This document shows positions 4,856 through 32,714 of a stretch of 35,434 nt of DNA, piece after piece. Both the position numbers and the translations under genes were made by a program. Source of the DNA: Caulobacteraceae bacterium (GTDB lineage Bacteria; Pseudomonadota; Alphaproteobacteria; Caulobacterales; Aquidulcibacteraceae); contig WRPF01000038.1 in the NCBI GenBank assembly GCA_009773335.1, positions 1 through 35,434 of the forward strand. The letters are read 5' to 3'. The notes under the pieces were generated by a model. The model was given only the letters and a program-made list of their open reading frames with translations. It ran no database searches and was not told the DNA's origin. Every line of letters starts with the position of its first letter. Positions within the stretch are counted from its first letter, which is position 1.

Positions 4856-4969
4856 ATTTGTGCCGCTTCTCAAAAGTGGGCGCGCGGAATTCGGGAAAAA
4901 TAGAGGGATAGATTTGGCCCATTCCCCCACCTTTCGCCGCGCCGGCCCATGGCCGCCAACAAATGCACA

Positions 4970-4991
4970 TGAATCTATCCGACCGGACTCC
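4970..4991 (+). promoter_or_regulatory. 22-base motif shared with 29916-29937, upstream of paralogous genes
   Basis: The 22 bases beginning TGAATCTATCC and ending CGGACTCC are identical in both copies. They contain the imperfect palindrome TCCGACCGGA. Similarity extends on both sides: an ATGGCCGCCA block about ten to twenty bases upstream, and a TGGGATCAT block downstream. The motif lies 54 bases before the ATG here and 42 before the other copy's ATG. It may be a promoter/operator or one end of a duplicated unit. Confidence 0.6.
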
Positions 4992-5045
4992 TGGCCATGG
5001 GATCATCGCTTTGTTTTCAACAGGCGATGGAGCCCAGGACCACCC

Positions 5046-5540
5046 ATGCAGATCCACAAACCCCTCCGCAGCAGCATCGAAAAGATCAGAACCCACGTCC
5101 GGTCCCTCCGGGTGTGGGGGCTGGAGGTGTATGCGTGGTGGGTGCTGGGGTTCGGCAATCGCGAGGAGCGCATCGATCTGCGCGGCGACATCCGTGACGC
5201 GCGCTGCGAGGTGCGTGAGCTGATCTTTCTGAGCATGGTCTCGCGCATGACGTTCCAGAAGCGCACGCGGCGATGGATGCGTCCGCCGTCCGCGCGCAGC
5301 GGCTTCCGCTACGCGCAAAGAAGGCTGAATCTCATCCGGCTCTACACGCGCGGCGTTCGATTGAAGACGCTCCGCGACATCCGCGATGTGCTGAACGATT
5401 TCGACCGCGTCGTGCAACGCGCCATCGCGCGGGTTCCGGAGGCGGCATGTACGGGCGGGCTCACGATTGTAGCGGCGCCTGCGTGCGCTTGCGGTTTCGC
5501 CGCGCCCGCACCCGCCGCCGAAGGCGCAGACACGTCATGA
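5046..5540 (+). CDS. Small basic helical protein of unknown function, paralogue 1
   Basis: I do not recognise this 164-residue family. The sequence looks all-helical and Arg-rich. A Trp-rich amphipathic or membrane-associated segment (SLRVWGLEVYAWWVLGFG) comes first, then a charged helix, then the block GFRYAQRRLNLIRL-YTRGVRLKTLRDIRDVLNDF, and an Ala/Pro-rich tail ending Asp-Thr-Ser. The protein at 29980-30456 is clearly paralogous: it shares SLR-W-LE--AW, GFRYA--R--L, TR-V, TL--R--LND and the DTS end. Upstream (4970-4991) and downstream (5550-5652) DNA is also shared. The start at 5046 has AGGA six bases upstream; the frame is open further up but without support. No HUH, DDE or other transposase motif is visible. 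Confidence 0.65.
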   Translation: MQIHKPLRSSIEKIRTHVRSLRVWGLEVYAWWVLGFGNREERIDLRGDIRDARCEVRELIFLSMVSRMTFQKRTRRWMRPPSARSGFRYAQRRLNLIRLYTRGVRLKTLRDIRDVLNDFDRVVQRAIARVPEAACTGGLTIVAAPACACGFAAPAPAAEGADTS

Positions 5541-5549
5541 CCTCCGAAA

Positions 5550-5652
5550 CAGGACCGCGGGCCTATGGCCCGCATTTTCAGTATTCAGGTCACGCGAGAT
5601 TCTGCGGAGTCTGGCGCCACCCGGGTATGCGGGCCATAGGCCCGCGGTCCTG
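5550..5652. repeat. Long palindromic element with conserved core, copy 1
   Basis: Arms at 5550-5575 and 5627-5652 are perfect 26-base inverted repeats. Each arm also contains its own palindrome, GCGGGCC-TAT-GGCCCGC. The 51-base loop holds a 25-base core (5592-5616) identical to 30508-30532, which can form a small hairpin AGATTC-TGCG-GAGTCT with one G-U pair. The element starts ten bases after the stop codon of the paralogue-1 gene. It resembles a pair of REP sequences in opposite orientation and could also stop transcription before tldD. Confidence 0.85.
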
Positions 5653-10668: not shown

Positions 10669-10675
10669 GCGGGGG

Positions 10676-10785
10676 CTAGAGCATTTTCCGACGAAGTGGA
10701 TCCCGGTTCGTCGAAAGAAAATGCGACCAATCAATAACCTAGAGCCGGTTCCGATCCGATTCCATCGGATCGGAAACGGCTCTAG
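10676..10785. repeat. Palindromic intergenic repeat, copy A (bidirectional terminator-like)
   Basis: About 110 bases, closely similar to 31287-31392. The first hairpin pairs GCATTTTC/CGACGAA (10681-10695) with TTCGTCG/GAAAATGC (10707-10724). The second pairs 10741-10760 with 10764-10783 with one mismatch around a TCC loop. Both ends are CTAG. It lies between two convergent genes, and its right end supplies the TAG stop of the VirD4-like gene. This style of repeat is common between genes in alphaproteobacteria. Confidence 0.9.
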
Positions 10786-12170
10786 AAGAGCCCCGGCTCC
10801 GGCGGCTTCTTGCCCTTCGGCGGCGCGGGTTTGGGTTCTTCCTCGAACATGGGGTTCTGGTCGAACATGCCCTTGAACGGCGCGTCCTCAAGATAATCCG
10901 GCAAGCGGCAGGCGACCGCCTTCACGCCGCTGCGCGCGATGATCTGGCGGTCGGGCGCCATGTTGCGCAGGGTGTCGGCGTCGATGTCGCCGATGAGTTC
11001 GCTCGACTCCTTTGCCATCAGGTGATTGGCGACGCCGAAGAGCTGGAAGACGCCGGCGTTGTTGAAAATCGTGCGCCAGTCCTTCGGGTAAAGGCGCTGC
11101 AGCTGTGACAGATCCTGGAAGAACGGCCAGACCTGCAGACCATAACCGCGCAGCAGCGTCATCGACTGGCGCAGCGGCCCGAACTCGCCGAGCTGGGCGC
11201 ATTCGTCGAGCAGGAAGAGCGTCGAGCGCTTCGGGCGCCGCCTGCGACCCATCACCGTCAGCATCAGCGCGCCGACCCACAGCCGCAGCAGCGCGCCGTG
11301 GCTCTCCAGCTTGTCCGGCGGAATGATGATGTAGATCGTCATCGGCGCGCCTTCGCGCACCGCGTCGAGATCTATCGTGGACCGTGTAAGGGACCGCAGC
11401 GCGGAGTCCGAGTTCACGACCTTCAGATAGCTCTGCGCCGTGGAGAGAATGCCCGAGCGCGTCTGCTCGGTGATGGGCAGGAAGGACGAGATGTTCTGCT
11501 TGGAGAGCCGGTTCAGGTCCTCGTGGTTTTCCAGGAGCGTGTGCAGGTTGAAGACCGCGTCGTCGCTCATCAGCAGTTCGCGGACGCGGCCGAAGTGACG
11601 CTCGTTCGGCGTCGACGTTTCGGCGACCGCCGCGATCACGCCGCTCATCAGCGAGCGGCCCCAGTTGTCCCAGAAGGGTTCCTTGTGGAAGCCCGCGTCC
11701 CCCGCCAGCAGCGAGGCGAGCATTTCGGCGTCCGCATCCAGCAGCGCGCCGGGGCGATCGAAGAGATCGAACGGGTTGAGGCTGTCGGTGCGCTTGCCCA
11801 CCGCCTGGAAGGGATCGAGCAGCAACACCTGCTGGCCCATCTCGCGGCGGCGGCGCGCGGTGACGTGCCAGGTCTCGCCCTTGGGGTCGATGACGATCAC
11901 TGAGCCTTCAAAGCGCAGCAGGTTCGGGATGATGACGCCGCGGCCCTTGCCCGCACCCGTGGGCGCTATGGTCAGCAGGTGGCGGTCCTCGCCGTAGAGA
12001 ATGGGCTCTTCGGCCACCACCGGCGCGGCTTTGTTCGCAACGGCGGACGAGAAGCCCATGGCGGCCTTGTCGTCATCGGCGGCCTTCCAGCCGAGCAGAA
12101 GCTCCATCGCGCCCGGTTCCGGCGGCGGAGCCGTGCGCGTGGATGCGACGATTGCTCTTTTACGGGCCAT
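10782..12170 (-). CDS. Orphan VirD4/TraG-type coupling ATPase without membrane anchor
   Basis: A 462-residue protein of the type IV secretion coupling family, hexameric ATPases that pass DNA or protein to a secretion channel. Walker A is APTGAGKGRGVIIPNLL (Lys74), followed by IVIDPKGETW. Walker B is TLFLLDECAQLGEFGPL, with the family's later LQVWPFFQDLSQLQ and IFNNAGVFQLFGVAN motifs. The usual two N-terminal membrane helices are missing: the protein begins with a basic, Pro-rich soluble segment. No relaxase, other type IV genes or integrase flank it. AAGGAGG lies nine bases before the ATG. The stop codon lies in the CTAG end of the palindromic repeat. Confidence 0.88.
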   Translation of the reverse strand: MARKRAIVASTRTAPPPEPGAMELLLGWKAADDDKAAMGFSSAVANKAAPVVAEEPILYGEDRHLLTIAPTGAGKGRGVIIPNLLRFEGSVIVIDPKGETWHVTARRRREMGQQVLLLDPFQAVGKRTDSLNPFDLFDRPGALLDADAEMLASLLAGDAGFHKEPFWDNWGRSLMSGVIAAVAETSTPNERHFGRVRELLMSDDAVFNLHTLLENHEDLNRLSKQNISSFLPITEQTRSGILSTAQSYLKVVNSDSALRSLTRSTIDLDAVREGAPMTIYIIIPPDKLESHGALLRLWVGALMLTVMGRRRRPKRSTLFLLDECAQLGEFGPLRQSMTLLRGYGLQVWPFFQDLSQLQRLYPKDWRTIFNNAGVFQLFGVANHLMAKESSELIGDIDADTLRNMAPDRQIIARSGVKAVACRLPDYLEDAPFKGMFDQNPMFEEEPKPAPPKGKKPPEPGLF

Positions 12171-21215: not shown

Positions 21216-22606
21216 GCGAAAAACAGCCAAACGCCATGGTCGAAATCGCAGCCAGCGAAATCGTGGAGACCGTACCGAGCGCCCTCATCATCCTCGACAA
21301 CAATCTCATCATCACGTCCGCCAATCGCGCATTCTACCAGACCTTCCGCACCAGCAGCCGCGATACCGAAGGCTGCCTCATCTACGATCTCGGCAACCGC
21401 CAGTGGGACATCCCCGCGCTCCGCACGCTTCTGGAGAGCGTCATCCCGCACCGGACGTCGGTCGAGGGGTTCGAGGTGGAGCACGATTTCCCGACGATCG
21501 GGCTGCGCACCATGCTGGTCAACGCCCGCAAGATCTTCAGTCCCGGCAACACCGGCGCGATCCTGCTCGCCATCGAGGACGTCAGCGAGGAACGCGCTGC
21601 GCGCGCCGAGAGCAAACGCATCTGGCAGCTCACCCAGAGCATCGTCGACACGATCCGCGACCCGCTCGTGGTGCTCGAAGACAACATGACCATCGTGATC
21701 GCCAGCAAGGCCTTTCTGACCATGTTCGGCACGACGGAGGCCGAGACGCGCGGACGGCGCGTATCCGATCTCGGCCAGCACCAGTGGGACGTGCCCGCGC
21801 TGCGCAATCTCATGGACAAGGTGCTTCCCGAGAACACGCCCATCGAGAGCTTCGAGATCGAGGACGATTTCCCGGGCCTCGGCCGCCGGGTCTTCAACCT
21901 GAACGCCCGCAAGGTGTCCCAGCCGGGAAACCACGCCCACCGCATGCTGCTGGTGTTCGAGGACGTCACCGACCGCAAGCAGCGCGAACGCGACGCCGTC
22001 ACGCTCGCCAACGAGATATCCCACCGGATCAAGAACAACCTGCAGATCGTCGTCGGCCTCATCGCCTACGAAGTGAAGTGGACCGCCGCGCCCTGCGTGA
22101 TCGGCTACAAGGCGATGCAGGCGCGCATCGCCGCCATCGCGCAGCTGTACGACCTTATCTCACAGTCGAGCCACGGACCGACGGTCGCCATCGCCGCGTA
22201 CCTGCGCGAGATCGCGAAAGCCATGGCGGCGAGCCTGCTGGGCGATTCCTCCGGCGTCGACATAGAGGTCCAGGCCGAAGCGCTGGAAATCGATTCAGAC
22301 CGCGCGGTCCCCTTCGGCCTGCTCGTCAACGAACTTGCGACAAACGCAATCAAGCACGCCTTTCCCGACGGACGCGGACACATCGTGCTGCGGGTCGCCA
22401 GGGTCGGTGACGAGATCGAACTGACCGTCGCCGACGACGGCATCGGCATGGACGCGGCGGACCATGCGCGATCGCCGGACAAGCACGGCGCCGACTACGT
22501 CGCGATATTCCTGCGACAGCTGGGCGGGCGGACAATTCCCGCCGCATCGGACGCGCCGGGAACCACGGTGACCGTGCGTCTGCCCCTTCTCACGGGATCT
22601 GTCTGA
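21212..22606 (+). CDS. Soluble HisKA_2-type histidine kinase with two PAS domains
   Basis: A 464-residue cytosolic sensor kinase without membrane segments. Two PAS domains (about 15-128 and 140-258) are obvious tandem duplicates: both carry a DLGxxQWDxPALR block and a later FExExDFPxxGxRxxxxNARK block. The phospho-acceptor is His271 in EISHRIKNNLQIVVGL, the HisKA_2 signature. The ATPase part has the N box NELATNAIKHAF and DDGIGM, then GADYVAIFLRQLGG in place of the usual second Gly-rich box. Kinases of this group often feed the alphaproteobacterial general stress response, which fits the promoter ahead of the operon. Signal unknown. Confidence 0.93.
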   Translation: MSEKQPNAMVEIAASEIVETVPSALIILDNNLIITSANRAFYQTFRTSSRDTEGCLIYDLGNRQWDIPALRTLLESVIPHRTSVEGFEVEHDFPTIGLRTMLVNARKIFSPGNTGAILLAIEDVSEERAARAESKRIWQLTQSIVDTIRDPLVVLEDNMTIVIASKAFLTMFGTTEAETRGRRVSDLGQHQWDVPALRNLMDKVLPENTPIESFEIEDDFPGLGRRVFNLNARKVSQPGNHAHRMLLVFEDVTDRKQRERDAVTLANEISHRIKNNLQIVVGLIAYEVKWTAAPCVIGYKAMQARIAAIAQLYDLISQSSHGPTVAIAAYLREIAKAMAASLLGDSSGVDIEVQAEALEIDSDRAVPFGLLVNELATNAIKHAFPDGRGHIVLRVARVGDEIELTVADDGIGMDAADHARSPDKHGADYVAIFLRQLGGRTIPAASDAPGTTVTVRLPLLTGSV

Positions 22607-29817: not shown

Positions 29818-29851
29818 CACCGCATCACGCCATCATTGCGGAAATGTAGGG

Positions 29852-29871
29852 GGAACGCGGACGCGCGTTCC
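29852..29871. repeat. Perfect 8-base inverted repeat
   Basis: GGAACGCG and CGCGTTCC surround GACG. It lies 34 bases after the small exported protein gene and about 45 bases before the shared 22-base motif. No T-run is present. It could be a weak terminator or an operator for the downstream gene. Confidence 0.4.
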
Positions 29872-29915: not shown

Positions 29916-29937
29916 TGAATCTATCCGACCGGACTCC
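29916..29937 (+). promoter_or_regulatory. 22-base motif shared with 4970-4991
   Basis: Identical over 22 bases to the motif ahead of the paralogue-1 gene, with flanking similarity on both sides. It lies 42 bases before the ATG of the gene at 29980. Confidence 0.6.
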
Positions 29938-29979: not shown

Positions 29980-30456
29980 ATGAAACACACACACCCGCCG
30001 AGACCCGACATCGCCAGAGTGAACGCCATCGCCCAGTCGCTACGACTGTGGGTGCTGGAGATCATCGCCTGGATCGCCGGGATCGCAGGCGTGAAATTCC
30101 GGCCCGACATTTCCGAAGAGATCTACGCCGCGAAACTCTGCGTGTTTCTCCACGCCGTGCATCGCTGCGATCAGCGCGGTCGCGGATTTGCGCGCAGGCA
30201 CTGGCGCGGCGCGGCGCCGGGATTTCGTTATGCGTTCAAACGCGGACAGCTTCGGGCGTTCACGCGCGTCGTGAAAATTCGCACTCTGACGAACCTGCGC
30301 AAATTGCTCAACGACATGGAGCCCGCCATCGCGCGGGTCGTGCGACAGCTGAAAAAGCAAAGCATCCACACCCACCTCGTCCCCGTCGCGCCCGGCGCGG
30401 ATACGTGCATCGCAGCGATTGCGAACATGGCGCCCGAAGAGTCGGACACGTCATGA
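29980..30456 (+). CDS. Small basic helical protein of unknown function, paralogue 2
   Basis: A 158-residue paralogue of the protein at 5046-5540. A hydrophobic helix near the N-terminus (SLRLWVLEIIAWIAGIAGV) could insert in a membrane. It is followed by an acidic/Cys-containing helix, an Arg-rich stretch (RRHWRGAAPGFRYAFKRGQLRAFTRVVKIRTLTNLRKLLNDM), a basic segment and a tail ending Asp-Thr-Ser. Sharing with paralogue 1 includes SLR-W-LE--AW, GFRYA, TR-V and TL--R--LND. The twelve bases spanning DTS and the stop are identical in both genes. GGAG lies just before the ATG. No known catalytic motif is visible. Confidence 0.68.
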   Translation: MKHTHPPRPDIARVNAIAQSLRLWVLEIIAWIAGIAGVKFRPDISEEIYAAKLCVFLHAVHRCDQRGRGFARRHWRGAAPGFRYAFKRGQLRAFTRVVKIRTLTNLRKLLNDMEPAIARVVRQLKKQSIHTHLVPVAPGADTCIAAIANMAPEESDTS

Positions 30457-30466
30457 TGTCGGCGAA

Positions 30467-30565
30467 CAGGACCGCCGGCGCCCTCGCCGGCATTCGGTGT
30501 CGAACCAACGCGAGATTCTGCGGAGTCTGGCGGCGCCCGCCCATGCCGGCGAGGGCGCGAACCGC
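30467..30565. repeat. Long palindromic element with conserved core, copy 2
   Basis: Inner arms at 30478-30493 and 30543-30558 are perfect 16-base inverted repeats; the outer flanks pair only partly. The arm sequence (GCGCCCTCGCCGGCAT) differs from copy 1, but the 25-base core in the loop (30508-30532) is identical, as is its distance to the right arm (ten bases). The element lies ten bases after the paralogue-2 stop and ends five bases before the GTG start of the pseudouridine synthase. Confidence 0.82.
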
Positions 30566-30570
30566 AGCGC

Positions 30571-31290
30571 GTGAACAAATGGCTCGCGCAGTCGGGCGTG
30601 TGCTCGCGGCGCGAAGCCGAGGCGCTGATTGCGGCGGGACTTGTGTCCGTCGACGGGCAGACCGTAAGCGATGCGGGCCGCAAGATCGAACGCGGCCAGA
30701 CGCTGACCCTGCAGGACGCCGGCGCCGCGCAGTTGCGCGCGCAGATGACCGTGGTGATCCACAAACCCGTCGGCGTCGTCTCCGCGCATCCCGAGCCGGG
30801 GCAGGTCGAAGCGGCAAAATTGCTGACCGCCGAAAATCTCTGGAACGGGCGCGGCGATATTCCGGCGAAGGACGCCTCCCTTCCCCCGCTCGGGCGCCTT
30901 GACCGGGATTCGCGCGGGCTGCTGCTGCTCTCCGAAGACGGCGTGCTCGCGAAGGCCGTGATCGGGCCGGACTCCACGCTCGACAAGGAATACCTCGTGC
31001 GCGTCGCCGGCCGCATCGACGACCGGAAAATCCACCTTCTCCGCCACGGCCTCTCGCTCGACGGCCGCACCCTGCGCCCCGCCACTGTCGAAGAGATCGG
31101 CCCGCAGCGTCTGCGATTCATCCTGCGCGAAGGCCGCAACCGCCAGATCCGGCGCATGTGCGAAAGCGTCAGCCTCGACGTCGTCGATCTCCTGCGCATC
31201 CGCATCGGCCCGATCGAGCTCGGCGATCTGCCAGAAGGCCAATGGCGCCCGCTCGGTCCCGGCGAGCGATCAGCGCTGCTGCGCGGCTAG
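30571..31290 (+). CDS. RluF-like rRNA pseudouridine synthase
   Basis: A 239-residue enzyme of the RsuA/RluB/RluE/RluF group, converting a specific rRNA uridine to pseudouridine. An S4 RNA-binding domain (NKWLAQSGVCSRREAEALIAAGLVSVDG) precedes the catalytic domain with IHKPVGV, GRLDRDSRGLLLLSEDG (catalytic Asp) and FILREGRNRQIRRMCE. The DKEYLVRV segment and the ending are most like RluF. GTG 30571 is the first possible start in the frame. It begins at the very start of the S4 domain, slightly short for the family, and lies five bases after a palindromic element. No good ribosome-binding site is visible. The stop lies in the CTAG end of the repeat at 31287. Confidence 0.9.
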   Translation: MNKWLAQSGVCSRREAEALIAAGLVSVDGQTVSDAGRKIERGQTLTLQDAGAAQLRAQMTVVIHKPVGVVSAHPEPGQVEAAKLLTAENLWNGRGDIPAKDASLPPLGRLDRDSRGLLLLSEDGVLAKAVIGPDSTLDKEYLVRVAGRIDDRKIHLLRHGLSLDGRTLRPATVEEIGPQRLRFILREGRNRQIRRMCESVSLDVVDLLRIRIGPIELGDLPEGQWRPLGPGERSALLRG

Positions 31291-31392
31291 AGCAATTTCC
31301 GACGAAGTCGGCGCCGGTTCGTCGCCAGAAAATGCGTTCAAACAAGAAGCTAGAGCCCCGATCCGATTCAATCGGATCGGAAATGGCTCTAG
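31287..31392. repeat. Palindromic intergenic repeat, copy B (bidirectional terminator-like)
   Basis: About 106 bases, closely similar to 10676-10785. The strongest hairpin pairs AGAGCC (31352-31357) with GGCTCT (31385-31390) and CCGATCCGAT (31358-31367) with ATCGGATCGG (31371-31380). Both ends are CTAG: the left end supplies the stop of the pseudouridine synthase, and the right end, read on the minus strand, supplies that of the DUF1254 gene. Confidence 0.9.
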
Positions 31393-32714
31393 ATCTTCGC
31401 GAGCGGCGGCAGCGTCCAGCGGCCATTGCGCAGATTCGCGCGCGGCAGATAGGCGCGGAATGTCACCCGGAACGGCCCGCGCGGCGCCGGCAGCCAGTTC
31501 GACGTATCGTCCGGCTGGTCCGCCGAAAGCATGATCGCCATCGATCCGTCGGCGTTCACTTTCAATCCTTCGGTGCGATTGCCGATCGCAAAACGGCGAA
31601 CCGGATTGTCGACGAAGAACAGCCGGCCATCCGCATCCGGTTCGTACATCGACAGCGACCAGAACGCATCGACCGGCGCGCCGCCCGCAGGCAACGAAAA
31701 CACATAGCGCGAGGCGCCGTTCAGCTCCGCGCCGGAAGCATCCCTGTCGGCAGACAAGTAAACCGCCTCCTCCGGCGGCAACGCGCCAAGCCCCGAAAGC
31801 GCGACCTGCGCGCGATAGGCGTCGTCATCGCCGAAATCGCCGGTGTTCGCAGCCGGATAGAGCCAGCCATCGACCTCGTGGCCCTTGCGTGCAAACCCCG
31901 CCTTCAGCTCAGCAAGCGTCTGCGTGATCGTTCCCTGCCAGAGCACGCGTTGAACTTCCGGCATCGCTTCCCATGTATCGGCCTCCACCGGCCCCAACCC
32001 CGTCGCGCGATATCTGGAAGCACGGGATGCCGGACCTGTCCCATGGCGCGAGCGCCACAGGCTTTCGTTGACGACGCCGAGGAAATTGTGCGCATCGCTC
32101 GCACTCGTCGGCGCCACGCGGCGCGGGATGAGCGGATCGGCAGTCACCGGCGTCATCGTGAATCGTTGCTGCACCGCCTTGGCCGCTTCGAGATCAGACG
32201 GACCATCGACGAGGATTCGCGCCAGCGCCCAGAGGTCCGTCGTCGGCGACCGGATGAGTTCCACGCCCGCAGGCGCCGCGCCGCGATAGCCGGGCCCCAC
32301 GATCCAGAAGCGTCCGCCGCGACCGCCCGTCGCGCGCGTGCCGATGATGCGGAAATTGTCGGTGAACGCCGACATGAACGCGACGCTGAAATAGCGGCCA
32401 AGCACGGATGGCGCGAAGACCTCGACGGGCCCGCCGGAAAGATCGATCCACGCGGAGGAATAGAGCGTATCGTTGTTCGGCGTCGTGACCGTGCGGGCCG
32501 TGTGATCAGACAACGTGCTACGGTGGCCAAAGCGATTGAATCCAGTGCCCGTCGTCGTCGCCCGCGCCGCGAGTCGCGCCATCTCATAAGGCGCAAAGCC
32601 ATACAGGAACGCATCGCGAATCGACGCGGGCGACTGCGCGAACGCACTCGGCGCGCCCAGCGCCAGAGCCGCCGCGCCCGTGGTCAGCGACTGTGCGAAT
32701 TGCCGTCTGTTCAT
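31389..32714 (-). CDS. Exported DUF1254/DUF1214 protein
   Basis: A 441-residue protein with a Tat-like or Sec signal (MNRRQFAQSLTTGAAALALGAPSAFA; the twin Arg is followed by Gln-Phe). The N-terminal DUF1254 region shows DAFLYGFAPYEMARL and TPNNDTLYSSAWIDLSGGPVEVFAPS. The C-terminal DUF1214 region has PVDAFWSLSMYEPDGRLFF-like text (PVDAFWSLSMYEPDADGRLF) followed by NRTEGLKVNADGSMAIMLSADQP and NWLPAPRGPFRVTFRAYLP. The two-domain order is typical of the family, whose reaction is not established. GGGAGG lies seven bases before the ATG. Confidence 0.9.
   Translation of the reverse strand: MNRRQFAQSLTTGAAALALGAPSAFAQSPASIRDAFLYGFAPYEMARLAARATTTGTGFNRFGHRSTLSDHTARTVTTPNNDTLYSSAWIDLSGGPVEVFAPSVLGRYFSVAFMSAFTDNFRIIGTRATGGRGGRFWIVGPGYRGAAPAGVELIRSPTTDLWALARILVDGPSDLEAAKAVQQRFTMTPVTADPLIPRRVAPTSASDAHNFLGVVNESLWRSRHGTGPASRASRYRATGLGPVEADTWEAMPEVQRVLWQGTITQTLAELKAGFARKGHEVDGWLYPAANTGDFGDDDAYRAQVALSGLGALPPEEAVYLSADRDASGAELNGASRYVFSLPAGGAPVDAFWSLSMYEPDADGRLFFVDNPVRRFAIGNRTEGLKVNADGSMAIMLSADQPDDTSNWLPAPRGPFRVTFRAYLPRANLRNGRWTLPPLAKI

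Follow-up and report, generated by a model that had tools for sequence, protein, structure and literature searches.

A dispersed family of small basic protein genes with REPIN-like 3' hairpins, probably co-regulated with gene-transfer-agent genes and subject to concerted evolution

The analyzed window, a 35,434-nt stretch of a Caulobacteraceae bacterium genome (contig WRPF01000038.1), contains two copies, A and B, of a cassette that is dispersed through the same genome. These cassettes probably represent a gene family that is co-regulated with gene-transfer-agent (GTA) genes, tailed by REPIN-like hairpins, and under concerted evolution. Membership in a GTA regulon is the most likely interpretation because the promoters of the GTA-type portal gene and of the cassettes have matching genome-specific forms. 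The cassette would consist of an upstream box, a 78-nt spacing, AATCTATCCGACCGG at the -35 position, a weak -10, a gene for a small basic protein with the C-terminus Asp-Thr-Ser, and a REPIN-like hairpin whose core is fixed.

The features of the two copies are listed in Table 1. Copies A and B share AATCTATCCGACCGGACTCC upstream, GACACGTCATGA at the end of the gene, and a 3' inverted repeat around ACGCGAGATTCTGCGGAGTCTGGCG, the 25-base core; their proteins are 32% identical in local alignment. The box-like sequence of copy B falls below the cut-off of the box counts given below because it has 4 mismatches. Both blocks are present as the first-pass annotation had noted, and their recurrence far exceeds chance: 64 DNA matches to the 712-bp block lie in its own genome (some copies give more than one match, and the reverse strand of the hairpin is included), and the two window proteins have 53 and 54 matches there, none with internal stops and several being fragments at contig ends. 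One element of that description did not hold. The ATGGCCGCCA patch is no general part of the cassette because only 7 of 44 copies have GGCCGCCA, at most 1 mismatch allowed, in the 40 nt preceding the motif; the background rate is 4.7% of random 40-mers.

Table 1. Features of cassette copies A and B in the window
Feature	Position	Strand	Basis or remark
Upstream promoter box, copy A (AAATAGAGGGATA)	4898..4910	+	Exactly 78 nt before TATCC of the -35-like motif
-35-like regulon motif AATCTATCCGACCGG, copy A	4972..4986	+	Sequence and motif scan
Weak -10-like position, copy A	5001..5006	+	Inferred from spacing to the TATACT-type box of a G017 copy
Leader hairpin, copy A	5004..5029	+	Folding; weak, z -1.05
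CDS A, 164-aa basic protein, ends ADTS	5046..5540	+	Helical in a low-confidence model
REPIN-like 3' hairpin, copy A	5550..5652	+	26-nt perfect arms
Conserved hairpin core, copy A	5592..5616	+	Repeat and core scan
Upstream box-like sequence, copy B (ATGTAGGGGGAAC)	29844..29856	+	By reading; 78 nt before TATCC, 4 mismatches
-35-like regulon motif, copy B	29918..29932	+	Sequence and motif scan
Leader hairpin, copy B, pairs the start codon	29949..29983	+	Folding; z -5.6
CDS B, 158 aa, ends SDTS	29980..30456	+	ORF and protein search
REPIN-like 3' hairpin, copy B	30467..30558	+	Right arm truncated where rluB begins
Conserved hairpin core, copy B	30508..30532	+	Repeat and core scan
rluB-like pseudouridine synthase, first codons missing at the cassette junction	30559..31290	+	Name by reading; listed start GTG 30571

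The genome of the window (G000; 4,035,341 bases in 285 contigs) was compared with its genus-mate G001 and with further genomes, mostly drafts or MAGs. About 54 copies of the small basic protein gene were found in the 4.04 Mb of G000, contig-edge fragments counted, and 45 in G001. At an E-value of 0.001 the protein was found in five of 61 genomes: G000 (53), G001 (45), G002 (4), G017 (4), and G032 (1), which agrees with the earlier proposal of a lineage-specific unit. For detailed comparison, 52 copies of G000 beyond the two of the window, 38 of the 45 from G001 (the seven left out being contig-edge fragments), and all nine matches from G002, G017, and G032 were fetched. No match was found for copy A in a genome-contig collection, where the G001 copies matched only the G001 MAG itself, at 23 loci. 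Viral contigs (searched with G001 copies), phages (with copy A), and plasmids (with one G001 copy) gave no match. Among the open-access PMC papers listed, none reports such a gene family. The last four residues of 77 proteins from G000 and G001 are ADTS in 67, PDTS in 8, PNTS in 1, and SDTS in 1. A family member in G062 (L240) has a reading frame that extends beyond the usual Asp-Thr-Ser end.

The window proteins could be assigned to no known family, as the first-pass annotation had stated: Pfam, PHROG, NCBIfam, and PADLOC models gave no match, including those for anti-phage defence and phage families (PADLOC, PHROG) and for Y1_Tnp or any other transposase domain (Pfam, NCBIfam, PHROG). A PDB profile search returned weak matches (best E-value 0.0011), and an AlphaFold model built from two sequences was of low confidence (pLDDT 37.8). 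The cassette genes are under purifying selection, with a median dN/dS of 0.22 between nearest paralogues (n = 77). Judging from charge and co-regulation, the protein might be a nucleic-acid-binding accessory factor of GTA production, a tentative assignment.

The boundaries of the shared unit were measured in pairwise alignments of at least 300 nt among 41 G000 copies with 500-600 nt of flanking DNA. The 3' end is sharp, with 702 of the 712 alignments stopping by 140 nt past the stop codon. The median 5' end lies at the motif, and 198 of the 712 alignments begin more than 40 nt upstream of it. These boundaries support the suggested unit, which is sharply delimited on its 3' side and, for most pairs, at the motif on its 5' side.

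The core of the hairpin is cassette-specific. Exact matches to it number 27 in G000 and 35 in G001, and none was found in G002, G017, or G032; the pattern read backwards gave 0 matches in G000. Out of the 62 exact matches, 59 lie just behind listed copies (25 and 34), one lies behind L089, which is a 5'-truncated remnant, and two are near contig ends. A lenient form of the core is present in 46 of 49 G000 copies with a stop codon, about four of which (L062, L074, L077, and L082) are doubtful by reading, and in 37 of 37 G001 copies. The closed G000 copies L052, L084, and L085 have no core, and none was seen by reading in the four G002 copies.

The arms around the core are of several palindromic types. 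In G000 the arms of one copy fit each other, the longest complement averaging 16.8 against 10.0 after permutation, with a maximum of 13.3 in 5000 permutations (46 copies), while in G001 the pairing is not clearly better than permuted (11.3 against 10.2, maximum 12.4; 37 copies). The 120-nt stretches of copies A and B fold with -82.7 kcal/mol (z -9.8) and -67.1 kcal/mol (z -3.3), respectively. The two inverted REP-like arms, clear in G000 and weak in G001, resemble those of REPINs, and RAYT-type genes (PF01797) are present in these genomes, with 5 matches in G000, 1 in G001, 2 in G002, and 1 in G017. Sequence matching the arm of copy B was found in G002 as free inverted pairs and in G001 at scattered sites. 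To the extent of the available portion of the REPIN/RAYT report (Bertels and Rainey 2011, PMC3116915), the likeness covers both the 3' hairpin built from two inverted REP-like arms and the presence of RAYT-type genes. In contrast to that system, the cassette arms enclose a conserved core that is almost confined to sites next to this gene, and the cassette gene, present in about 50 copies, is no tyrosine transposase. It is quite possible, if short of probable, that the hairpin protects or ends the transcript in addition to taking part in recombination and forming a REP-type end. The loops, 63 of 83 of which fit YNCG, are suggestive of an RNA-specific UNCG loop. A coding role of the hairpin through an ATGA overlap is unsupported, since the distance from the stop to the core varies (mostly 52-59 nt, in some copies at least 82) and breaks the frame.

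The 22-base motif had been described as a part of the unit. It precedes nearly every copy, but it does not belong to this unit alone. With up to two substitutions, TATCCGACCGG was found upstream of 44 of 45 copies in G000, 32 of 32 in G001, 4 of 4 in G017, and 1 of 1 in G032, and upstream of 0 of 4 in G002, considering copies with both ends present. Exact sites of TCTATCCGRCCGG number 65 in G000, where the pattern read backwards gave 0 matches. They include 45 before listed copies, 2 (L162 and L169) before copies cut by contig ends, and 18 elsewhere, which rules out a motif exclusive to the cassette. Many free-standing copies of motif or core had been named as evidence against a single unit; these were found in part for the motif (18 of 65 sites), whereas 59 of the 62 cores stand beside the gene.

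The genes behind the non-cassette motif sites of G000 include a portal gene (Pfam, 7e-80), a terminase gene (2.4e-24 and 1.3e-22), and a DUF2793 gene (3.7e-27). By eye, the ORFs following the portal gene resemble prohead protease and capsid genes. The other sites precede four copies of a noncoding element, two members of a second small protein family ending in NSS, five contig-end repeats, a gene for an HTH protein (weak matches), and three other genes of no named kind, one of them cut by a contig end. The motif is, by its placement, a putative regulon promoter element in the -35 position, upstream of GTA-type portal and terminase genes as well as cassettes.

A portal gene was found in four of the five relatives searched, and the promoter form common to the portal gene and the cassettes is specific to the genome: CTATCCGACCGG in G000 and GCAATCCGACCGGGTC in G001. 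GCAATCCGACCGGGTC lies 101 nt before the start codon of the G001 portal gene, and CTATCCGACCGG occupies that place for the G000 portal gene. Promoter elements are shared between the family and GTA structural genes in G002 only in part. There, the form CAATCCGGGGGRTGA is found at the portal gene and at one of the four copies; the portal gene has CAATCCGGGGGGTGA and copy L092 has CAATCCGGGGGATGA, while L135 is similar and L090 and L091 differ more. In G062, CTATCCGACCGA lies about 1.6 kb before the portal gene on the same strand, ahead of a small gene. In G017 the portal gene was found, but the searched form of the motif was absent from the fetched stretch. The motif survey, genus g6 included, comprised 30 loci that were read, many of them chance matches inside coding sequence; three genomes of genus g6 have the motif ahead of an endolysin-like gene (one of these genes was tested and matched PHROG at 4e-22).

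A second promoter box, which the first-pass annotation had not noted, was searched upstream of the motif as AAATAGGGGGATA with up to 3 substitutions. Its spacing to the motif is exactly 78 nt at 18 of 64 sites in G000, 134 nt at 19 of 33 in G001, and 156-159 nt at 7 of 19 in G062. The box is also present at the portal gene (90 nt), the DUF2793 gene (88 nt), the HTH gene (79 nt), and three noncoding elements (78 nt) of G000. Controls were counted at 73-79, 83-89, and 152-160 nt, windows that were picked after the distances had been seen and that do not include the G001 peak at 134 nt. No match in any of the four genomes was obtained with the reverse complement or with one scrambled box, a second scrambled box gave 0 in G000, G001, and G017 and 5 in G062, and a near-shifted copy of the box matched often, as expected.

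With the TATACT of a G017 copy as the -10, the beginning of the box falls near -114 relative to the inferred transcription start. A Caulobacter GafY element has been placed at -123 to -113 in the available portion of PMC11150451. The position of the box is thus close to the published Caulobacter layout, which points to a putative link with GafA/GafYZ. According to the portions available, the GafYZ motif could not be predicted in Caulobacter (PMC9632790), and motif prediction was difficult, with one putative GafY element mapped at a single promoter (PMC11150451). The GTA accessory genes controlled by GafA/GafYZ (PMC11150451, PMC9632790, PMC9638019, PMC6363796) are like the cassettes in being dispersed and in sharing promoter elements with the GTA structural cluster, and the same portions of these four papers give about 20 GafY-bound regions and describe no general motif for the Caulobacter system. 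Unlike that system, the cassettes are about 50 copies of one gene family with a two-box promoter.

In the five genomes searched, a DUF6456 (GafA-type domain) gene was found in G001, G002, G017, and G062 and not in G000, and the fetched DUF6456 loci showed no motif. That no DUF6456 gene was found in G000 would suit a promoter that belongs to some other regulon, under an alternative sigma factor or a stress regulator, and that happens to take in GTA genes, as would the -35 position of the motif and its occurrence ahead of noncoding elements. Such a regulon is unlikely, as the targets that can be named are phage-type (terminase, portal, DUF2793, and the endolysin-like gene in the three g6 genomes) and the spacing of the boxes is close to the published GafY layout.

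The cassette copies were also compared between G000 and G001. Common flanking DNA was found for 14 pairs (14 G000 and 12 G001 copies with complete proteins), on both sides in 2 pairs and on one side in 12. Protein identity in these pairs is 34-44%, compared with 75-96% for the best match in a copy's own genome, and the nearest relative of every copy (77 of 77) belongs to its own genome. Four ordinary genes are 90-96% identical between G000 and G001, with dS of 0.35-0.51. Six pairs (L043, L044, L049, L051, L072, and L076 with their partners) look like the same sites because a single alignment covers the last codons, the hairpin, and the adjoining flank with no interruption. Since all 77 copies are nearest to a copy of their own genome and the flank-sharing pairs are 34-44% identical, either concerted evolution or replacement in place is indicated for the family. 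Paralogues are closer to each other than same-site counterparts are, with 12 of the 14 counterparts identified by one flank only.

Mosaic copies were recognized in two G000 clades (14 of 26 and 2 of 9) and in none of the 26 copies of the G001 clade. In the G001 copies L122, L108, and L099, the upstream flank of one G000 copy is joined to the downstream flank of another, and the flanks of L044 (G000) are on different contigs in both G001 and G002, away from the contig ends that face the cassette. These rearranged flanks suggest exchange between cassettes; errors in MAG assembly are an alternative cause. Gene conversion would be the process behind the likeness within genomes.

Duplication within an ordinary host family, kept for dosage, would instead attribute the clustering by genome to differential loss and fast evolution, and the hairpin to a REP-type 3' end that stabilizes mRNA. 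The purifying selection, the G001 clade devoid of mosaics, and the REP doublets that also stand behind four G000 noncoding elements and free in G002 would all be accommodated. This account appears improbable, because flank-sharing pairs have 34-44% identity against 90-96% for the four ordinary genes, because mosaics are found in G000, and because none of the 77 copies has a closer relative in the other genome, so that an implausible differential loss at every site would be necessary. Concerted evolution, the favored explanation, is a feature of multigene families such as rRNA operons. The cassettes resemble these families in that paralogues are closer within than between genomes, also where flanks match, and differ from rRNA-type families in that they are small, fast-diverging protein genes whose promoter is that of a regulon and whose hairpin arms vary.

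The spreading of the unit, proposed in the first-pass annotation, is supported at individual sites and opposed at others. At site B, no family match was found on the G001 and G002 contigs that hold rluB. By reading, rluB of both relatives keeps a longer N-terminus that is missing in the window, and the right arm of copy B stops at that point. The junction of copy B with rluB is derived, and insertion is its likeliest cause; only the right junction is shown because neither relative matches on the left flank. In G002, site A is empty, with about 100 bases in place of about 1,030 in the window. In G001, the promoter region at site A is similar (65 nt at 77%), and behind it stands a different small reading frame that ends in Asp-Asp-Ser-Ser; by reading, no single open frame was seen from the nearest start. 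A good part of the sites look old, with contents replaced or homogenised, because 14 G000 copies share flanks with a G001 copy.

The derived junction and the empty site A would also be expected of a selfish mobile cassette of a single gene, which borrows the GTA promoter, inserts together with the REPIN-like hairpin, perhaps helped by a host RAYT, and copies itself. The abundance of copies (about 54 and 45 per genome), the sharp 3' end with the 5' end mostly at the motif, and the REP-like arms in a genome with RAYT genes fit this model. It is nevertheless doubtful: the protein matches no transposase or other family, 14 G000 copies are flank-matched to a G001 copy, the genes have no internal stops and a dN/dS of 0.22, and a single decayed remnant (L089) was seen among the loci read.

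Under the preferred interpretation of a GTA-regulon family, the cassette proteins are probably made in GTA-producing cells, because their promoter is common to host GTA genes. Recombination between copies would homogenise the family in each genome, producing the patterns described above. The same recombination would swap hairpin arms and perhaps flanks, and new insertions would occur at a low rate (one derived junction, that of copy B). The cassette could also be a hitchhiker of the GTA, switched on only during GTA production, whose protein and hairpin mark or process nearby DNA for preferential packaging or recombination, so that cassettes overwrite each other across sites and cells; this seems quite unlikely, more so than the alternatives above, and we know of no smaller genetic parasite or partner of a GTA. 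If the GTA-regulon interpretation is right, the promoter provides a sequence-level signature for the GTA regulon in this bacterial family, and the fifty-copy protein family and the multi-copy structured RNAs are candidates for new participants in GTA biology. A dispersed family rewritten between two related species while its flanks stay conserved would then be a clear example of concerted evolution among short bacterial protein genes.

Several elements other than the cassettes were observed in the same survey. The cassette promoter also precedes multi-copy elements of about 300-540 nt that have no clear reading frame; they are found in G000 (L155, L160, L164, and L173) and at about 13 of the 19 motif sites of G062 (L230-L247). 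The consensus fold of seven G062 copies has -128.9 kcal/mol and 101 predicted pairs, of which 11 show changes on both sides. The four G000 elements are followed by a REP doublet without the core. No Rfam family matched the window or explained the noncoding elements; at ten noncoding-element loci, only glycine riboswitches and mmgR RNA scored above the cut-off, outside the elements.

At L166 and L172 (G000), L245 (G062), and the L145 site (G001), the same promoter precedes genes for second small proteins, which have a similar C-terminus (NSS, ADTS, or DSS). L166, L172, and L245 align with one another, and their comparison with the first family gave no support for homology (hhalign probability 1.6%). 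Five near-alike contig ends of G000 (L157, L159, L161, L163, and L171) start with the promoter motif, the remainder being cut by the assembly. A Y1 transposase-like gene (1287-1835 of L165) lies directly upstream of the GTA-type terminase gene in G000.

The window includes another dispersed repeat pair (10674-10809 and 31285-31416) with an internal palindrome (CTAGAGC...GATCCGATTC); the two copies are 78-84% alike, and related copies are present in G002. A 109-nt direct repeat (21385-21493 and 21766-21874; 72%) lies within a gene that reads like a sensor kinase, and presumably represents duplicated PAS-type domains.
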